A stretch of DNA of 51,586 bases. Source: an uncultured Bacteroidota bacterium (lineage in GTDB: Bacteria; Bacteroidota; Bacteroidia; Bacteroidales; SZUA-534). Positions within the stretch are counted from its first letter, which is position 1, and each line of letters starts with the position of its first letter. The position numbers and the translations under genes are program-made. Where the stretch lies: assembly GCA_937885735.1 (NCBI GenBank), contig CALABN010000348.1:1-51586 (forward strand), in the 5' to 3' direction. The notes under the pieces are model-generated. The model made no database searches, was not told the origin of the DNA, and was given only the letters and a program-made list of their open reading frames with translations. Shown here piece by piece: positions 36,601 to 42,971 of this stretch.

Positions 36601-38241
36601 ATGAAAAGATACATCATATTTATTTTGGCAATCGCGACAAGCATCACATTCTATTCGTGCAAAGATGAGGATGACTCACCTATGACAGGTGACGGCGGAG
36701 TATTGACTGGCGTTTGGACATTGCTAAACCCCGAAACAGACAATCCGTATGAAACCGAAACTGCTTCGTACGGACTCAAGATCAAGTCCGATGGCAAGAT
36801 TCAGACCGTGAAGATTAGCAATGGAAAAATAACTGAAACCCGCGACTATGCCATAGGAATGATAATGAATTTCAATGGAAACAGTTTCGATGTAAAGGGC
36901 ATTGACAAGGATGGTAAGGGCCAATTTCAGTTGGATACCACAATCCGAATTGTCGATAACAAGAAGTTTGTCCCGTATTTGACTATGCGTCTGTCATCAA
37001 CCGTATTCAGCAAGGAATATTTTTCTGATATAAACATCAAGGTCGACGGTGGCTATTATCTTAAAGACTATGACCACAATTCAAGTATGAGCCAAATCTC
37101 TGCCCAAAGAGATTCCAAACTGTATGGCGACTGGACGCTTCAAGACCAGGACCTGAAAACACTATATAGTTTCAGCGCAGACAAGATGTCGATAAATGAC
37201 AAGAAAATGATTGACTGGTGCACAAATAAAGGGCATCTGTATGTAATAAACTATATAGCAATAGATGAAACTTCACAACTGAACCTAATACAAAGTTTCA
37301 CATATAATATCAGTGGCAATACTCTTAAATTATATTCACCGGAAACTGGCGAAAAGACATTTGCCAAAGGGAAGTCTGTCACGCCTGACAAGCCAGTCAC
37401 ACCTGACACAACGATTACTCCGGTTACTCCTGACACAACAATTACTCCGGTTACGCCTGACACAACGGTTACCCCAGTCACGCCTGACACAACGGTTACC
37501 CCGGTCACGCCAATAACAGGCAACCCCGGTTCTTTGGCGGGCGCCTGGATGCGAATGGACGAAACTGGCTCATACCGTATTCTCACAGACTATGGCTACT
37601 ATGGATTCCAGATTAACACTGACGGCACATGCCAATTGGCTGAAAAAGACATTGAGACATTCACCGTCACAACAACAAGCGAGACTCCGCTGTTCACGAT
37701 AACCAGCGCCGAAAACGGATACTACACCGCAGTGACTTCCAATGGCACCGTGTTTGACGGAACGTATGAAAACGGTTTGTCACTTTCCATTAACGATTAC
37801 GGAAGCATGGCTTACGACAGATTATACATAAAGACTTGTTCATCAAATATATATCTTAACGGATCACAAACAATAGTTGGATATTACTCGCGTGTGACCA
37901 ATGCCGACGGAACATCGTACAACTACGACTGCACTCCTTATGAAATGGTAGGCCAATGGAATCATCAATATTCCAATGAATACTATGATGAATTCAATAA
38001 CTATCACTATGAATCAGGTACAGAATCATTCGATTTTGACTTGGGTGGCGAAGGAACCTATACCGACTATGGCTCTAACGACAGCTACCCTGTAATATGG
38101 GCCTGCTATGAGGAAAACTCAACCCAGTGGCTGTACTTGTATTATCCAAATCAAAATGTTTCAAGAATATACGAATACTATATAAACAAGAACACACTAT
38201 ATATAAAGGTGGAAGACAACTGGATAATATTCGAGCATTGA
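36601..38241 (+). CDS. Lipoprotein with two lipocalin-like halves and Thr-Pro repeat linker
   Basis: 546 residues. Lipoprotein signal peptide KRYIIFILAIATSITFYS with lipobox FYS-C at residue 20, followed by acidic KDEDD, a surface-export-like signal in Bacteroidota. The first half opens with LTGVWTLLNPE and the second with LAGAWMRMDETG; both are beta-rich, lipocalin-like patterns found in Bacteroidota lipoproteins. They are joined by a linker at about residues 260-303 with four PVTPDTT(I/V)T units. The C-terminal half is very rich in Tyr, Asn and Ser (EYYDEFNNYHYESG). The ligand is unknown. It is probably co-transcribed with the barrel-like protein upstream. Confidence 0.72.
   Translation: MKRYIIFILAIATSITFYSCKDEDDSPMTGDGGVLTGVWTLLNPETDNPYETETASYGLKIKSDGKIQTVKISNGKITETRDYAIGMIMNFNGNSFDVKGIDKDGKGQFQLDTTIRIVDNKKFVPYLTMRLSSTVFSKEYFSDINIKVDGGYYLKDYDHNSSMSQISAQRDSKLYGDWTLQDQDLKTLYSFSADKMSINDKKMIDWCTNKGHLYVINYIAIDETSQLNLIQSFTYNISGNTLKLYSPETGEKTFAKGKSVTPDKPVTPDTTITPVTPDTTITPVTPDTTVTPVTPDTTVTPVTPITGNPGSLAGAWMRMDETGSYRILTDYGYYGFQINTDGTCQLAEKDIETFTVTTTSETPLFTITSAENGYYTAVTSNGTVFDGTYENGLSLSINDYGSMAYDRLYIKTCSSNIYLNGSQTIVGYYSRVTNADGTSYNYDCTPYEMVGQWNHQYSNEYYDEFNNYHYESGTESFDFDLGGEGTYTDYGSNDSYPVIWACYEENSTQWLYLYYPNQNVSRIYEYYINKNTLYIKVEDNWIIFEH
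37387..37510 (+). repeat. 27-bp coding tandem repeat (PVTPDTT linker)
   Basis: Four imperfect 27-bp units encoding PVTPDTT(I/V)T, plus partial units at each end, in the linker of the lipoprotein. Synonymous differences between units show that they are not freshly duplicated. Confidence 0.85.
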
Positions 38242-38419: not shown

Positions 38420-39634
38420 CTATTTCCCTAATCCCAATTCAACATAAATAGTCAAACCGCCGCCCGAAGTTTCGTAAGCATCAACCGAGCCACCATATTG
38501 CAGGGCTATGTTCTTGACAATTGCCAGTCCGAGTCCTGTGCCGCCGAGCCTGCGCGAGCGGCCTTTGTCGATGCGGTAGAAGCGCTCAAAAATGTGTGGA
38601 AGATGTTCATACGGAATGCCTACGCCGTTGTCGATGAAGTAAAATTGGCATTTGTCTTTTGCAAGTTCGGCCTGCACTTCAAAATAAGTGGCTTCGGTAG
38701 CGTATGTAACGGTATTGTTGAATATGTTGAGAAATAGCGAATAAATGAGCGACGGGTCGCCAAGCATTGGAATTCGGTCAGGAATGTTCATCTTGAGCCG
38801 AATGTTCCGTTCGCTGAACTGTACCACTGTTTCATCTTCAACCTGCCGCAGAATCAGTGCCGCGTCAATAGGGGTTGATGGGCGTTCCATATTCACCTCG
38901 TCGAGTCGCGACAGTGTTCCCATGTCGGCCAGCAGGCGGCTCATGCGCTGACTCTGCCTGTAGCATCGTTCCACAAACTCGTTGCGCTTGTCGTCAGGCA
39001 GCGACGGATTGTTGAAAAGAGTTTCCAGATACCCTTCAATGGTAGCCGCAGGCGTTTTCAGCTCGTGAGCGGCATTCTCGGTAAGCTGTCGCTTGATGCG
39101 CTGTTTCTCCTGTTCGCTGCGGTTGAATTTGTAGCGGAAAAACACCATTGTGCCGATAATGGCAAAGATGCCAATAGTGTAATAGAAAAACGTGTAGTCA
39201 TGTTCGAGCGACGAAGTGAGTTCGGCCGAATACGGCACTGAAGAACGTATTATTGTGTCGCCAAAACGTGTGGCCGAGTAGAAATATTTCTCGCCATTGG
39301 TTTCCGATGCACGTTTTATGGCGTAGCCGCTTCCTTTTTGCATGGCACTTTTAACCTCCTCGCGATACAAATGATTTCCCATCTTCTCCACATCGTCTTC
39401 TTCCGTGTCGGAAAGTACGTTGCCAAGAGTGTCGATAACTGTCACGCGGATGTGGCTGTCGCTCGAGCCTTCAGTGTAGTATCGGTAGTTGTTGAGTTGA
39501 AGTTGCGAGTGCAGAATGTCGATGCGGAAGGCATGCCCGTGCCTGTACTCGTAGATGCCAAGGCAGAGTGTAAAAACCACAGCTAGGCTTGTGGCAATCA
39601 GGAAAAAATTATTTTCAAACCCCTTTTTCATCAT
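38420..39634 (-). CDS. Sensor histidine kinase, PhoR-like
   Basis: 404 residues. Two membrane helices (about 9-27 and 149-167) enclose a periplasmic sensor domain of about 120 residues. The HisKA box NAAHELKTPA has the phosphoacceptor His190. The HATPase_c motifs are present: N box (LFLNIFNNTVTYA), G1 (DNGVGIP), F box (FERFYRID) and G2 (GGTGLGLAIV). It lacks a PAS or HAMP domain. Its start overlaps the response-regulator gene by four bases. Because the regulator sits directly downstream of a Na/phosphate cotransporter, phosphate limitation is the most likely signal; this is inferred from context, not from the sensor domain. Confidence 0.93.
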   Translation of the reverse strand: MMKKGFENNFFLIATSLAVVFTLCLGIYEYRHGHAFRIDILHSQLQLNNYRYYTEGSSDSHIRVTVIDTLGNVLSDTEEDDVEKMGNHLYREEVKSAMQKGSGYAIKRASETNGEKYFYSATRFGDTIIRSSVPYSAELTSSLEHDYTFFYYTIGIFAIIGTMVFFRYKFNRSEQEKQRIKRQLTENAAHELKTPAATIEGYLETLFNNPSLPDDKRNEFVERCYRQSQRMSRLLADMGTLSRLDEVNMERPSTPIDAALILRQVEDETVVQFSERNIRLKMNIPDRIPMLGDPSLIYSLFLNIFNNTVTYATEATYFEVQAELAKDKCQFYFIDNGVGIPYEHLPHIFERFYRIDKGRSRRLGGTGLGLAIVKNIALQYGGSVDAYETSGGGLTIYVELGLGK

Positions 39635-40302
39635 TCGCCAAACATATATCCGTAGCCGAATTTAGTGCGTAGCAATTCCCCGTATCGGCCTATTTTTTTG
39701 CGTATGCGGGTAATATTCACGTCAACAGTGCGGTCGAGCACTACAGTGTCGCCAGGCCATACCGTCTGCAGAATGCTCTCGCGTGACAATACCTGTCCGT
39801 GCTTTGAAATCAGCAATGCCAGAAGTTCAAATTCAAGTTTTGTGAATGTCACGCTATCGCCATCGACAGTACATTCCTTGCGGTCGGTATTCAGCACAAT
39901 TCCCTCGTAACTGATTGTGTGTTCCTGCGGGCATTCGGCCGATGTGCGGCGAAGCACGGCTTTAACTCGTGCCTTAACTTCGCTTATGCGGAACGGCTTG
40001 CAGATGTAGTCGTCGCTGCCGAGCGCAAATCCTTGGAGCATATCGTCTTCCATGGTTTTTGCGGTGCAGAAGATAATGGGGATATTGGCCGTGCGGTTGT
40101 CCGATTTCAGTTCGCTTGCCCATTCAAACCCCGACTTGGGAGTCATCATCACGTCAAGCAATATTAGGTCGGGGAAAGGTTCTTCCAGTGTTATTGGAGC
40201 CTCGGCTGTCTGTACGCCGTATCCTTCCATTTCGAGATTGAAACGTAGAATCTCGCAAATGTCGGGTTCATCATCTACTATCAGTATCTTCTTGTTTTCC
40301 AT
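39631..40302 (-). CDS. OmpR/PhoB-family response regulator
   Basis: 223 residues from ATG 40302 (MENKKILIVDDEPDI); a longer frame starting at 40341 adds 13 unlikely residues. The receiver domain (1-120) has acidic pocket D10-D11, phosphoacceptor D50 in LILLDVMM, T80 and K102 (ICKPF). The OmpR-type winged helix (about 130-223) has FTKLEFELLALLISKHGQVLSRESIL and VDVNITRIRKKIG. It is translationally coupled to the sensor kinase. Given the Na/Pi transporter upstream and the 11-bp direct repeats before it, it is probably the local PhoB and its own target site is the repeat array. Confidence 0.93.
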   Translation of the reverse strand: MENKKILIVDDEPDICEILRFNLEMEGYGVQTAEAPITLEEPFPDLILLDVMMTPKSGFEWASELKSDNRTANIPIIFCTAKTMEDDMLQGFALGSDDYICKPFRISEVKARVKAVLRRTSAECPQEHTISYEGIVLNTDRKECTVDGDSVTFTKLEFELLALLISKHGQVLSRESILQTVWPGDTVVLDRTVDVNITRIRKKIGRYGELLRTKFGYGYMFGE

Positions 40303-40377
40303 TTCATCTGCATAATTACACAATTGCTTCCAAAAAAACAATTGCCTGATACTGTGGCGTAAAGTTTTGCCGCGACG

Positions 40378-42066
40378 TTACAGCCTTGTTTGCCGAGCCT
40401 TGCTTTGCACTACATTCAGGACATAGTCGCCCAGTTTTTCCAGTCCGTTGATAAAGTCGATAAAGAAAGCGCCAAGTTTGTAATCGTAGAGTCCTGCCGA
40501 TAAATTCTGCAGGTTCTCGTTTCGGAGAGTTGTGCGCAAGTCATTTATCTCATTTTCAATATTGTAACTGCGAGTTATGTCGTGACCTTCGCCTTCGGGT
40601 TGTTGCAGTGTTTCGGTCATCAGTTCAAGAGCGTCGCCAACAAGATGCTCCATTGTAACAATCTGCTTTAGCTGGTCGGGTGTGAAATCAACGTTGCAGT
40701 TTTCACGTTTTCGCGACAATGTGCGTGCCAGCGAGAAACAGCAGTCGCCAATCGACTCCAAGTCGTCAACCTCGCGGAGCATGCGCTGAACCTGGCGTTT
40801 GGCGTCGTCGGAGAGATGCCCGTCGCTGACTTGCTGCAGATAGTGCGCTATCTCATATTCCATGTTATCGGTTATGCTTTCGTATTTTTCAACCTTGCCG
40901 TATATGTCCTTGAACTCGTCGTCGCGCTTTGCGCCGTGCATCATCAGCACGTAGTTGAACGATTTTTGGCACCGTTCGGCAAAATGCACAATCTCTTTGC
41001 GCGCCTGAAGCATCGACAGTTCGGCAGTCGAAAACAGTCCGCCCGATATGAATTTAAGGCCTTTGGCTTCAACATCTTCCTTCATTGGCAGCATATGGCA
41101 AACTATTTGCTCTATCTGTTTCACGAAACCTATTAGCAGCAACGTGTTGAAGACGTTAAAGGCTGTATGGAACATCGACAGCTTGTAAAGGTCGCTGTTG
41201 TCGGAGCCCGATACGTTTTCAACAAACCAGCTGACGGCGTTGCAGAACGGGTAGAAAATGAGCAGCACCACAACCACGCCGAACACGTTGAACAGCATGT
41301 GCGCCAGTGCCGCCCTTCGGGCCTGTGTGCCTGCCGTCATTGATGCCATCAGGGCGGTTATAGTCGTGCCAATGTTCTGGCCCATTGCGAGTGCGGCGGC
41401 CTGTTCAAATCCGAATCCAGGAATCTGCATGTCAAATAGCATCAGTGTTATGGCCATTGTGGCGGCCGATGCCTGAACTATCATTGTGAAAACTGCGCCA
41501 ACCAGTACAAACAGCAGAATGGTAAGAAATCCGCCACCGTCGATGCCTGCAAGCATGTTGGCAACCAGCGAGCCTATATTCAGGTCGTTGGCCGACTGCT
41601 GCAGAAAATTAAGCCCCATAAAGAGAAATGCAAATCCGAAAATGAATTCGCCTACCGATTTGCGTCTGCTCTGCTTGCTGAATATGAAAATGATGCCGAA
41701 TGCTATCAGAGGCAGCGTTATCGACGCTATGTTGACTTTGAAGCCAATTGCCGATATAATCCACGCCGTAACCGTTGTTCCGATATTGGCACCCATTATC
41801 ACTCCGATAGCTTGTATTAGGCTCATGAGCCCAGCATTGACAAACGATACAACCATGACCGTAGTCGCTGATGAAGATTGTATCAGGGCCGTCACTGTCA
41901 TACCTGTCAGCACGCCCATAAAGCGGTTTTTTGTCATGGCGGCAAGAATGCTTCGCAAGCGGTCGCCTGCAAATTTTTCAAGGCCTTCGCTCATTGTCTT
42001 CATTCCGAACAGGAAAAGCCCCAATGAGCCGAACAGTGAAAGCAGATTTGTGAATGTTCCCATCAT
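40378..42066 (-). CDS. Na/phosphate cotransporter with PhoU-like C-terminal domain
   Basis: 562 residues from ATG 42066 (MMGTFTNLL); a GTG nine codons upstream is less likely. It is the NptA/YjbB type: two inverted-repeat transport cores, each with the family motif, TALIQSSSATTVMVV in the first and MIVQASAATMAITLM in the second, with a conserved GANIGTTVTAWI and its repeat GQNIGTTITALM. The C-terminal PhoU-like helical domain covers about 350-560 (ELSMLQARKEIVHFAERC ... VDDLESIGDC). It imports inorganic phosphate with sodium, and the PhoU domain may regulate uptake. It lies first in a unit with the PhoB- and PhoR-like genes. Confidence 0.93.
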   Translation of the reverse strand: MMGTFTNLLSLFGSLGLFLFGMKTMSEGLEKFAGDRLRSILAAMTKNRFMGVLTGMTVTALIQSSSATTVMVVSFVNAGLMSLIQAIGVIMGANIGTTVTAWIISAIGFKVNIASITLPLIAFGIIFIFSKQSRRKSVGEFIFGFAFLFMGLNFLQQSANDLNIGSLVANMLAGIDGGGFLTILLFVLVGAVFTMIVQASAATMAITLMLFDMQIPGFGFEQAAALAMGQNIGTTITALMASMTAGTQARRAALAHMLFNVFGVVVVLLIFYPFCNAVSWFVENVSGSDNSDLYKLSMFHTAFNVFNTLLLIGFVKQIEQIVCHMLPMKEDVEAKGLKFISGGLFSTAELSMLQARKEIVHFAERCQKSFNYVLMMHGAKRDDEFKDIYGKVEKYESITDNMEYEIAHYLQQVSDGHLSDDAKRQVQRMLREVDDLESIGDCCFSLARTLSRKRENCNVDFTPDQLKQIVTMEHLVGDALELMTETLQQPEGEGHDITRSYNIENEINDLRTTLRNENLQNLSAGLYDYKLGAFFIDFINGLEKLGDYVLNVVQSKARQTRL

Positions 42067-42100
42067 TTGAATGTTTGATGCGCCAAAATTCACATATAGA

Positions 42101-42140
42101 TGTTACAATTTTGTTTCAAACTTGTGAAAGGGCTGTTACA
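42101..42140 (-). promoter_or_regulatory. Pho-box-like array: four 7-bp direct repeats, 11-bp period
   Basis: TGTTACA (42101), TGTTTCA (42112), TGTGAAA (42123) and TGTTACA (42134) start exactly 11 bases apart; spacers are four bases and vary. The first and last units are identical. The array lies 35-74 bases upstream of the Na/Pi cotransporter start. PhoB/PhoP boxes in other phyla are direct repeats of 6-7 bases at 11-bp period, so this is the likely binding site for the adjacent PhoB-like regulator. A minus-strand CAAGTTTG (one mismatch to the -7 consensus) lies at 42117-42124. Confidence 0.65.
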
Positions 42141-42188: not shown

Positions 42189-42413
42189 CTATTTCACCTC
42201 CTCATAATCAACATACTCGCCATCTGATTGTGAAAAGTGTTTCTTCTTTTGTCCTGTTTTTTGGTATGTAATATGTCCGTCGGCATATTGAGTGTGTTCC
42301 TGATTGGCATATTCTTCGGCCTTGCGGTGAAACTTCCTCAACTTGAACTTCACTATCTGGATTCCTAAAAAACCGAGCAGGTATAAGAATAATATGGTAA
42401 GTAAAAGAATCAT
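42189..42413 (-). CDS. DUF4834 family small membrane protein
   Basis: 74 residues. One N-terminal membrane helix (ILLLTILFLYLLGFLGIQI) is followed by a basic segment (KLRKFHRKAEEY) and a polar C-terminus ending VDYEEVK, the pattern of DUF4834 in Bacteroidota. Function unknown. It lies six bases downstream of the MntP-like gene, so it is the last gene of the PBP1A unit. Confidence 0.72.
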   Translation of the reverse strand: MILLLTILFLYLLGFLGIQIVKFKLRKFHRKAEEYANQEHTQYADGHITYQKTGQKKKHFSQSDGEYVDYEEVK

Positions 42414-42419
42414 TATGGC

Positions 42420-42971
42420 TTATTTTGAAACAATTGTATAAATGGCGCCGAACAAGGCCACCAAAACCATTATCCAACCGTTGTAGATATGGTGCAGGCG
42501 CTGTTGTCTTCTGCCAAGAATGCTTGTTGCGAGCAGTGCCACAAAAAATAGCGGTGCAAGCCACCCTGCCATTGAATATCTGACATTCATCAAGCCAAAC
42601 GCCAACGAGTAGATGAAGGCGTTTATTCCTGTGAAGACCGACAAGGCCAGCAATCCGCTGAACACGGTAGGGTTTATCGAGCGCTTGAACTTTGCTGTCT
42701 TCAATCCGTCGAAAACCATCTTGACGGCCAAAAGGAACATCAGGCTCGACGCGAACCAGTTGGCAAGTGTGCCGTCAACATATTGCGTGCCCAATTTGCC
42801 TAAAGCCATTCCGCCCAAAACAAGCAGACACACTGTCAGCGTGGTAGTCAAAAAACGGACAAGCAGGTCTTTAAGCGACCATTTCTTGTCAAAAAAAGAT
42901 GCCGTAAGGCCCAATGCAACAATGTCGAGCGTTGATGCAACGGCAAATGTCAGAAAAAGATATTCGGCCAC
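42420..42971 (-). CDS. MntP-like multi-pass membrane protein
   Basis: 183 residues, GTG start at 42971 overlapping the upstream stop by one base. Six hydrophobic helices in two halves match the MntP manganese-efflux layout: STLDIVALGL with Asp16 in the position of MntP D16, then GTLANWFASSLMFLLAVKMVFDGLK, then a second half opening GLLALSVFTGINAF. In MntP that second-half motif has an essential Asp; here it is Asn117. It may therefore be a relative with altered ion specificity or no transport activity. The assignment is based on topology and motif placement, not on a search. Confidence 0.6.
   Translation of the reverse strand: MAEYLFLTFAVASTLDIVALGLTASFFDKKWSLKDLLVRFLTTTLTVCLLVLGGMALGKLGTQYVDGTLANWFASSLMFLLAVKMVFDGLKTAKFKRSINPTVFSGLLALSVFTGINAFIYSLAFGLMNVRYSMAGWLAPLFFVALLATSILGRRQQRLHHIYNGWIMVLVALFGAIYTIVSK

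Follow-up and report, generated by a model that had tools for sequence, protein, structure and literature searches.

A predicted Pho box of four 11-bp direct repeats upstream of an nptA-phoB-phoR gene cluster in an uncultured Bacteroidales bacterium

The PhoB regulator of the Bacteroides/Phocaeicola/Prevotella family is known from a mutant and from EMSA, and no defined site for it was found in the open-licence literature, among the matches listed. A 51,586-nt stretch of DNA from an uncultured Bacteroidota bacterium (contig CALABN010000348.1; the whole stretch is referred to here as the window) carries an array of short direct repeats directly upstream of a Na+/phosphate cotransporter gene, with a phoB and a phoR-like gene behind it. 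We asked whether this array could be the site to which PhoB binds. Our analysis indicates that the array is, with high probability, a Pho box, the predicted docking site of PhoB, because it matches arrays that precede many phosphate genes of the family.

The initial annotation had described four 7-base words beginning exactly 11 bases apart between positions 42101 and 42140, and re-reading the sequence reproduced both the positions and the 11-base period: on the plus strand, the words are TGTTACA (42101-42107), TGTTTCA (42112-42118), TGTGAAA (42123-42129) and TGTTACA (42134-42140). The strand of reading, however, had to be reversed. As the surrounding genes lie on the minus strand, the meaningful reading is of TGTAACA-type words that point into nptA, in the order TGTAACA-gccc-TTTCACA-agtt-TGAAACA-aaat-TGTAACA. 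The distal unit A (minus strand, 42134..42140) and the proximal unit D (minus strand, 42101..42107) are exact copies of TGTAACA; unit B (TTTCACA; minus strand, 42123..42129) has two mismatches and unit C (TGAAACA; minus strand, 42112..42118) has one, and 3 of the 28 word positions thus deviate. The TCACA ending of unit B is also found in two relatives (L001 and L002). A Pho box is expected to have at least two 7-base direct repeats at an 11-bp period, and this array has four. Its word, TGTAACA, does not fit the E. coli-type CTGTCAT consensus when compared alongside the E. coli boxes, a difference already pointed out in the initial annotation. The array is intergenic, spanning the region from 35 to 74 nt ahead of the likely nptA ATG at 42066, and the small same-strand ORF upstream of it ends at 42189. 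Nine bp downstream of the array, and 16 nt from the start of unit D, is a probable -7 core promoter element, GAATTTTG (minus strand, 42084..42091). It has one mismatch to TAnnTTTG, which we take to be the -7 consensus of Bacteroides/Bacteroidota (the T of TA is replaced by G), and it stands in the register seen in relatives.

The array matches TGTAACA at 25 of 28 positions on the minus strand, the highest four-unit score of the window; at the other periods from 8 to 15, the top score was 20. A score of at least 25/28 would be expected by chance about 2e-7 times per strand of the window, with word and threshold both derived from the array itself. A loose pattern search of the window returned two overlapping matches, both at the array, compared to a mean of 0.05 in 100 shuffles. 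By a consensus-free score (pairwise identity among the four 7-mers), the array reached 33/42, a value found at period 11 nowhere else in the window and nowhere in 10 shuffled windows, and attained at period 15 at one unrelated position of the window (34899).

The genes downstream of the array agree with their earlier description as a Na/phosphate cotransporter gene in an operon with PhoB-like and PhoR-like genes. The first, nptA (minus strand, 40378..42066), encodes a Na+/Pi cotransporter with a C-terminal PhoU domain (Pfam PF02690 and PF01895) and scores 245.8 bits against NCBIfam TIGR00704 (Na/Pi cotransporter II-related), above the cut-off of 210.1. Its start is likely the ATG at 42066, the GTG at 42093 given by the ORF finder probably being too early. 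Relatives of NptA in phage records were all under 60% identity. The second gene, phoB (minus strand, 39631..40302), encodes an OmpR/PhoB-type response regulator that starts with MENKKILI at about 40302, within an ORF of 39631..40341. Its product exceeds the cut-off of the Bacteroidota PhoB model NF053854 (287.7 bits; cut-off, 270) and aligns with E. coli PhoB at 38% identity. The third gene (minus strand, 38420..39634) overlaps phoB by 4 bases and encodes a histidine kinase with HisKA and HATPase_c domains. This kinase resembles PhoR, scoring 373.1 bits against the Bacteroidota PhoR model NF053855, under the cut-off of 500; within the 404-aa protein, the match is best over the kinase core, at positions 354-577 of the model's 583. 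Pfam listed no PAS family for it; this says little, since two longer PhoR-like proteins from the family gave no PAS listing either. On the strand of nptA, the window also contains a small membrane ORF directly upstream of it (42189..42413) and, upstream as well, a gene for a small MntP-like protein (42423..42971; manganese efflux, PF02659).

How far is the array kept at other nptA loci? We fetched 80 such loci, at which array positions were measured from the start of the protein match and not from the true gene start, and built a 39-row tree from 38 of them and the window. The best four-unit score was 24-27 of 28 at nine of the 80 loci. Seven of these nine (L001-L006 and L028) form one clade with the window (support 100/99 in the 39-row tree), and the remaining two, X. 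ruminicola L018 and its near-copy L020, lie elsewhere in the tree. The initial annotation had made conservation of the period upstream of orthologues its refuting test; in all seven fetched relatives of the window's nptA clade, arrays of TGTAACA words with an 11-bp period occupy the same place, with flanking DNA that is unalike. The second unit of the L003 array is degenerate.

Aligning the eight clade members (the window and the seven relatives) on the array, we found 84% identity at the 28 word positions (85% between the window and the others), compared to 56% (44%) at the 16 linker positions, 71% (51%) over 13 nt at the -7 element, 39% (23%) over the 44 nt upstream of the array and 42% (33%) over the 31 nt downstream. 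Conserved words with less conserved linkers and flanks are what would be expected of a site that its protein reads from a single side of the helix. Across the nine genomes of the relatives, there are eight exact matches to TGTAACA-N4-TGTAACA, found in seven of the genomes, and all lie on nptA contigs, upstream of nptA.

The neighborhood of nptA varies among these relatives. Both phoB and phoR follow nptA in L001, L005 and L028, and in L003 with two small ORFs in between; only the end of a phoR is visible in the truncated L004, and neither gene lies within the fetched DNA of L002 and L006. A PHO4/Pit transporter gene diverges from nptA in L001, L004, L018, L020 and L028 (identified by ORF) and in L006 (by sequence), these calls resting on the N-terminus, with Pfam tests for L018 and L028 and blast for L001. 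Upstream of nptA, TGTAACA-type arrays of opposite orientation occur in L018 (5702..6001), L003, L001 and L006, and those of L018, L001 and L006 point to the divergent transporter. One intergenic region can therefore hold two back-to-back Pho boxes. The window has no divergent PHO4/Pit gene. We considered the Phocaeicola/Bacteroides nptA loci as further support and rejected them: their partial matches (scores of 18-22) run across the opening codons, start codon included, of a divergent gene. Its product has the N-terminus LQIYCKNN at the few loci inspected by eye. Conservation there may be coding, and these matches were therefore left out of the evidence.

If the array is a Pho box, the same motif should precede other phosphate genes of the lineage. 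Among 201 Bacteroidaceae-family genomes, we found 55 exact TGTAACA-N4-TGTAACA pairs in 42 genomes (159 had none), compared to 9 matches for the reversed pattern. Raw counts by spacing are not cleanly peaked at N4. They were tried as a control and set aside because genomes such as G134, G175 and G187 hold dozens of TGTAACA pairs, and we used the downstream genes instead. The word came from the window and its relatives, and the reference proteins, taken from the window, L018, L131, L133 and L134, were fixed beforehand. The test set comprised 54 of the 55 exact-pair places, or 50 loci, with the X. ruminicola nptA place (G006) excluded; the control set comprised 40 loci (48 matches) with other spacings, picked from the listed places outside G134, G175 and G187. 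A phosphate gene lay within 400 bp downstream on the same strand at 26 of the 50 exact-pair loci but at only 1 of the 40 loci with other spacings (Fisher, 9e-8). The 26 genes comprise 16 pit/PHO4, three nptA, three pstS/pstC, two first genes of a pst operon and two phoB. The word and period are thus found before several classical Pho genes of the lineage: before nptA- and pst-type genes, as the initial annotation had proposed to search, and also before pit and phoB.

The pre-set references left 24 of the 50 loci without a phosphate gene, and some of these matches sit inside ORFs. Adding PhoU, Porin_O_P, Ca-ATPase and phosphodiesterase (Pfam) to the reference list after the hits had been seen raised the counts to 34/50 and 2/40 (31/47 and 2/40 without L082, L132 and L193), with 16 loci still unassigned. 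A "porin" label for the first gene of a pst operon was dropped, its homologue in L132 having no Pfam match. In the genomes rich in TGTAACA pairs (G134, G175, G187, G146 and G192; 13 to 50 pairs each), the pairs are probably a multi-copy repeat family; among the matches listed for G134, G175 and G187, spacing is mostly 9 and 14 bp, in places with both strands close together.

Two further gene sets bear on the association. Five Bacteroides/Phocaeicola pst operons were examined, and four are preceded by the best or joint-best four-unit array of their 10 kb. The fifth, L134, shows just two units, and a better array exists within its 10 kb; in L132, the array runs into what is predicted as the 5' end of the first ORF, the real start of which is uncertain. 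We also selected 30 PHO4 loci by protein alone: 20 long genes, seven short ones, two fragments and one of insufficient length for use. PHO4 transporters of two kinds coexist in the family, a long one of about 750 aa and a short, PitA-like one of about 340 aa. Eight of the 20 long genes have a period-11 array scoring at least 20; when seven other periods were tried, the count was 0 or 1 of 20 each time. The other 12 score below 20 at period 11. These eight overlap with the earlier sets in L294, which is X. ruminicola again, and L289, also found in the exact-pair search. No array scoring at least 20 was found at any of the seven short PitA-like genes examined. Phylum-wide, the exact pair occurs in 20 of 394 genomes (25 matches, versus 10 for the reversed pattern), with genes from the extended list at 4 of 23 loci. 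Two of these four loci belong to a single genome within the family, and one match is at 24% identity. As the phylum-wide link is weak, the exact word appears to be mainly a trait of one family.

A Pho box should also hold a fixed position relative to the core promoter. At 33 loci with phosphate genes or genes of the later-added classes, 16 of the 20 TAnnTTTG elements within 60 nt downstream of the arrays fell in one of 11 registers (binomial, about 7e-14, treating related loci as independent); an exact element in this register was present at 16 of the 33 loci and absent from 17. All seven TAnnTTTG elements of the nptA set lie in that single register, as does, with its one mismatch, GAATTTTG of the window. 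At four of the loci (L001, L003, L006 and L028), the top-scoring four units extend into the -7 element. Among the protein-selected Pit genes, TAnnTTTG is found at a distance of exactly 16 nt, counted from where the last unit starts, at six of the eight high-scoring arrays, and there is none at the other two.

This geometry recalls E. coli. At phoA, phoB and pstS, the Pho box likewise consists of head-to-tail direct repeats of 7+4 bases before phosphate-uptake genes and phoB, and the distance from the TGT of the last unit to the start of what we take to be the -10 hexamer is 16 nt (counted by hand), as it is to the TA of the -7 element here. The E. coli word is CTGTCAT, whereas here it is TGTAACA, and the core promoter is TATAAT there but of the Bacteroidota -7 type, TAnnTTTG, here. 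This suggests that the geometry between PhoB and polymerase has been kept across phyla, though operator word and core promoter differ. Unlike in E. coli, the array here precedes the gene of a secondary Na/Pi transporter, with phoB and phoR behind it. The PhoP box of Bacillus subtilis, from another phylum and with another core promoter, consists of TTAACA-like repeats, a word that shares AACA with TGTAACA. It too is built of direct-repeat units of 11 nt before phosphate genes, the unit length by which a Pho box is defined (PMC4415409).

Taken together, these data support a model, to which we assign a probability of about 85%, in which two tandem dimers of phosphorylated PhoB occupy the four units and activate the operon, phoB itself included. 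The operator would comprise four 11-bp direct-repeat units, each of TGTAACA and a 4-base linker, bound by the PhoB encoded downstream of nptA. When phosphate is scarce, PhoR would phosphorylate PhoB, and two PhoB dimers would then line up head to tail on the four units along one face of the helix. The proximal unit would set PhoB beside RNA polymerase at the -7 element 9 bp away, and the dimers would recruit polymerase to a promoter that lacks the full consensus. If nptA, phoB and phoR share a single transcript, as we infer, they would be switched on together, generating positive feedback. The identity of the operator is much firmer than the sign of the regulation.

Data from Bacteroides fragilis are consistent with this assignment. 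There, PhoB binds a 512-bp pstC promoter fragment in EMSA, and in a phoB mutant at low phosphate the pst genes are down 103- to 542-fold and a phosphate/sulphate permease is down 52-fold (PMC3547664). The window's PhoB fits the Bacteroidota PhoB model, and the targets of the B. fragilis PhoRB system (BF1575/BF1576), namely pst, phosphate permease, Na-dependent phosphate transporter, porin O and Ca-ATPase (PMC3547664), recur among the genes behind TGTAACA pairs here. The available text of that study gives no box sequence, nor was one found in the available parts of PMC8115612 or PMC11253607. The initial annotation's remark that this lineage has no established Pho box thus stands for the box sequence, as none stated for Bacteroides/Prevotella turned up in the open-licence literature among the matches listed; it is qualified by the B. 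fragilis PhoB-pstC EMSA (PMC3547664) and by a TTTAACA motif from Riemerella (PMC9603813). TGTAACA at an 11-bp period, in register with TAnnTTTG, is offered as a concrete candidate Pho box for the Bacteroides/Phocaeicola/Prevotella family, by which the phosphate regulon of major gut bacteria becomes in part predictable from sequence.

The most serious alternative accepts the array as a PhoB site but has PhoB repress nptA under phosphate limitation, NptA being a high-phosphate transporter or an exporter. The PhoU domain of NptA and the proposal that YjbB, its E. coli relative, is an exporter both fit such a role. In B. fragilis, the annotated Na+-dependent phosphate transporter BF4351 falls 101-fold under phosphate limitation in the wild type and does not change in the phoB mutant, which indicates that PhoB can repress an nptA-like gene (PMC3547664). 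Judging by BF numbers, phoRB of B. fragilis lies away from BF4351. We nevertheless regard repression as unlikely in the window. Between its array and the -7 element lie 9 bp, the register seen at pit promoters, and the B. fragilis pst genes and phosphate permease need PhoB for expression (PMC3547664). The window's operon also encodes PhoB and PhoR themselves. Furthermore, inspection by eye revealed no comparable clean upstream array at the fetched Bacteroides/Phocaeicola nptA loci.

Considerably less probable is binding by another OmpR/PhoB-family regulator for which phosphate genes form only part of the regulon. Regulators of the ArcA, RprY and PorX type also use 11-bp direct repeats, and 16 of the 50 exact-pair loci lie before genes outside the extended phosphate set. 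The "PhoP" of Riemerella anatipestifer, a Bacteroidota regulator that is up in phosphate starvation, yielded a DAP-seq motif, TTTAACA, one base from TGTAACA, with 583 peaks; this motif resembles that of ArcA, and in the available text the targets are mostly not phosphate genes and an 11-bp repetition goes unmentioned (PMC9603813). Here, however, the matched genes are those of the classical Pho regulon, including phoB itself (L170 and L182), and the regulator of the window's operon scores above the cut-off of the Bacteroidota PhoB model. Chance similarity, coding constraint or a simple repeat, to which the many TGTAACA pairs at other spacings in some family genomes and the coding-confounded Phocaeicola nptA matches might point, is hardly credible for an intergenic array with a chance expectation of about 2e-7 and with words conserved where linkers and flanks are not; the spacing controls speak against it as well.

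With PhoB binding as the preferred reading, we also asked which other Pho components accompany the array. The survey covered the nine genomes of the array-bearing relatives (G001-G009, of L001-L006, L018, L020 and L028), most of them MAGs whose completeness is not stated. In eight of the nine, no PstC was detected, and neither PstB nor PhoU scored above cut-off in any; G002 has pieces of PstC and a PstB just below cut-off (336 versus 343.2 bits). The PhoU-like hits of the nine genomes were confined to NptA-sized frames (562-623 aa), with no hit in G006; seven of the nine relatives have two such frames with a PhoU-like stretch. That incompleteness accounts for the missing genes in eight genomes is unlikely. 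The lack of a stand-alone PhoU is not peculiar to the clade, as no such hit was obtained in the Pst-bearing Bacteroides/Phocaeicola genomes G010, G011 and G015 either. With no Pst and no stand-alone PhoU detected in eight of nine relatives, the operon may be a Pst-less phosphate-sensing unit. A lineage with PhoB/PhoR and no detectable Pst or free PhoU would have to sense phosphate in another way. Speculatively, the clade could have rebuilt its phosphate-starvation system without Pst, NptA with its fused PhoU domain serving as both transporter and sensor partner of PhoR in one self-amplifying nptA-phoB-phoR operon behind a four-unit Pho box; we think this doubtful as a whole, and signalling from NptA-PhoU to PhoR is put forward as a hypothesis only.

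Elsewhere in the window, an ORF at 36601..38241 shows, by eye, an N-terminus like that of a lipoprotein and a linker repeated in tandem (VTPDTTITPVTPDTTVTP). In other genomes, TGTAACA pairs lie about 130-150 bp before genes for P-type Ca2+ ATPases (L167 2535 and L177 2502), and L210 has such a pair with 3-base spacing. The response of a Ca-transporting ATPase of B. fragilis changes sign upon deletion of phoB (PMC3547664), and together these observations raise the possibility of a calcium branch of the Pho regulon. The gene for a Fur-family regulator is preceded, at a distance of about 140 bp, by an exact TGTAACA pair at L163 1501, which hints at a possible link between phosphate and iron or peroxide.
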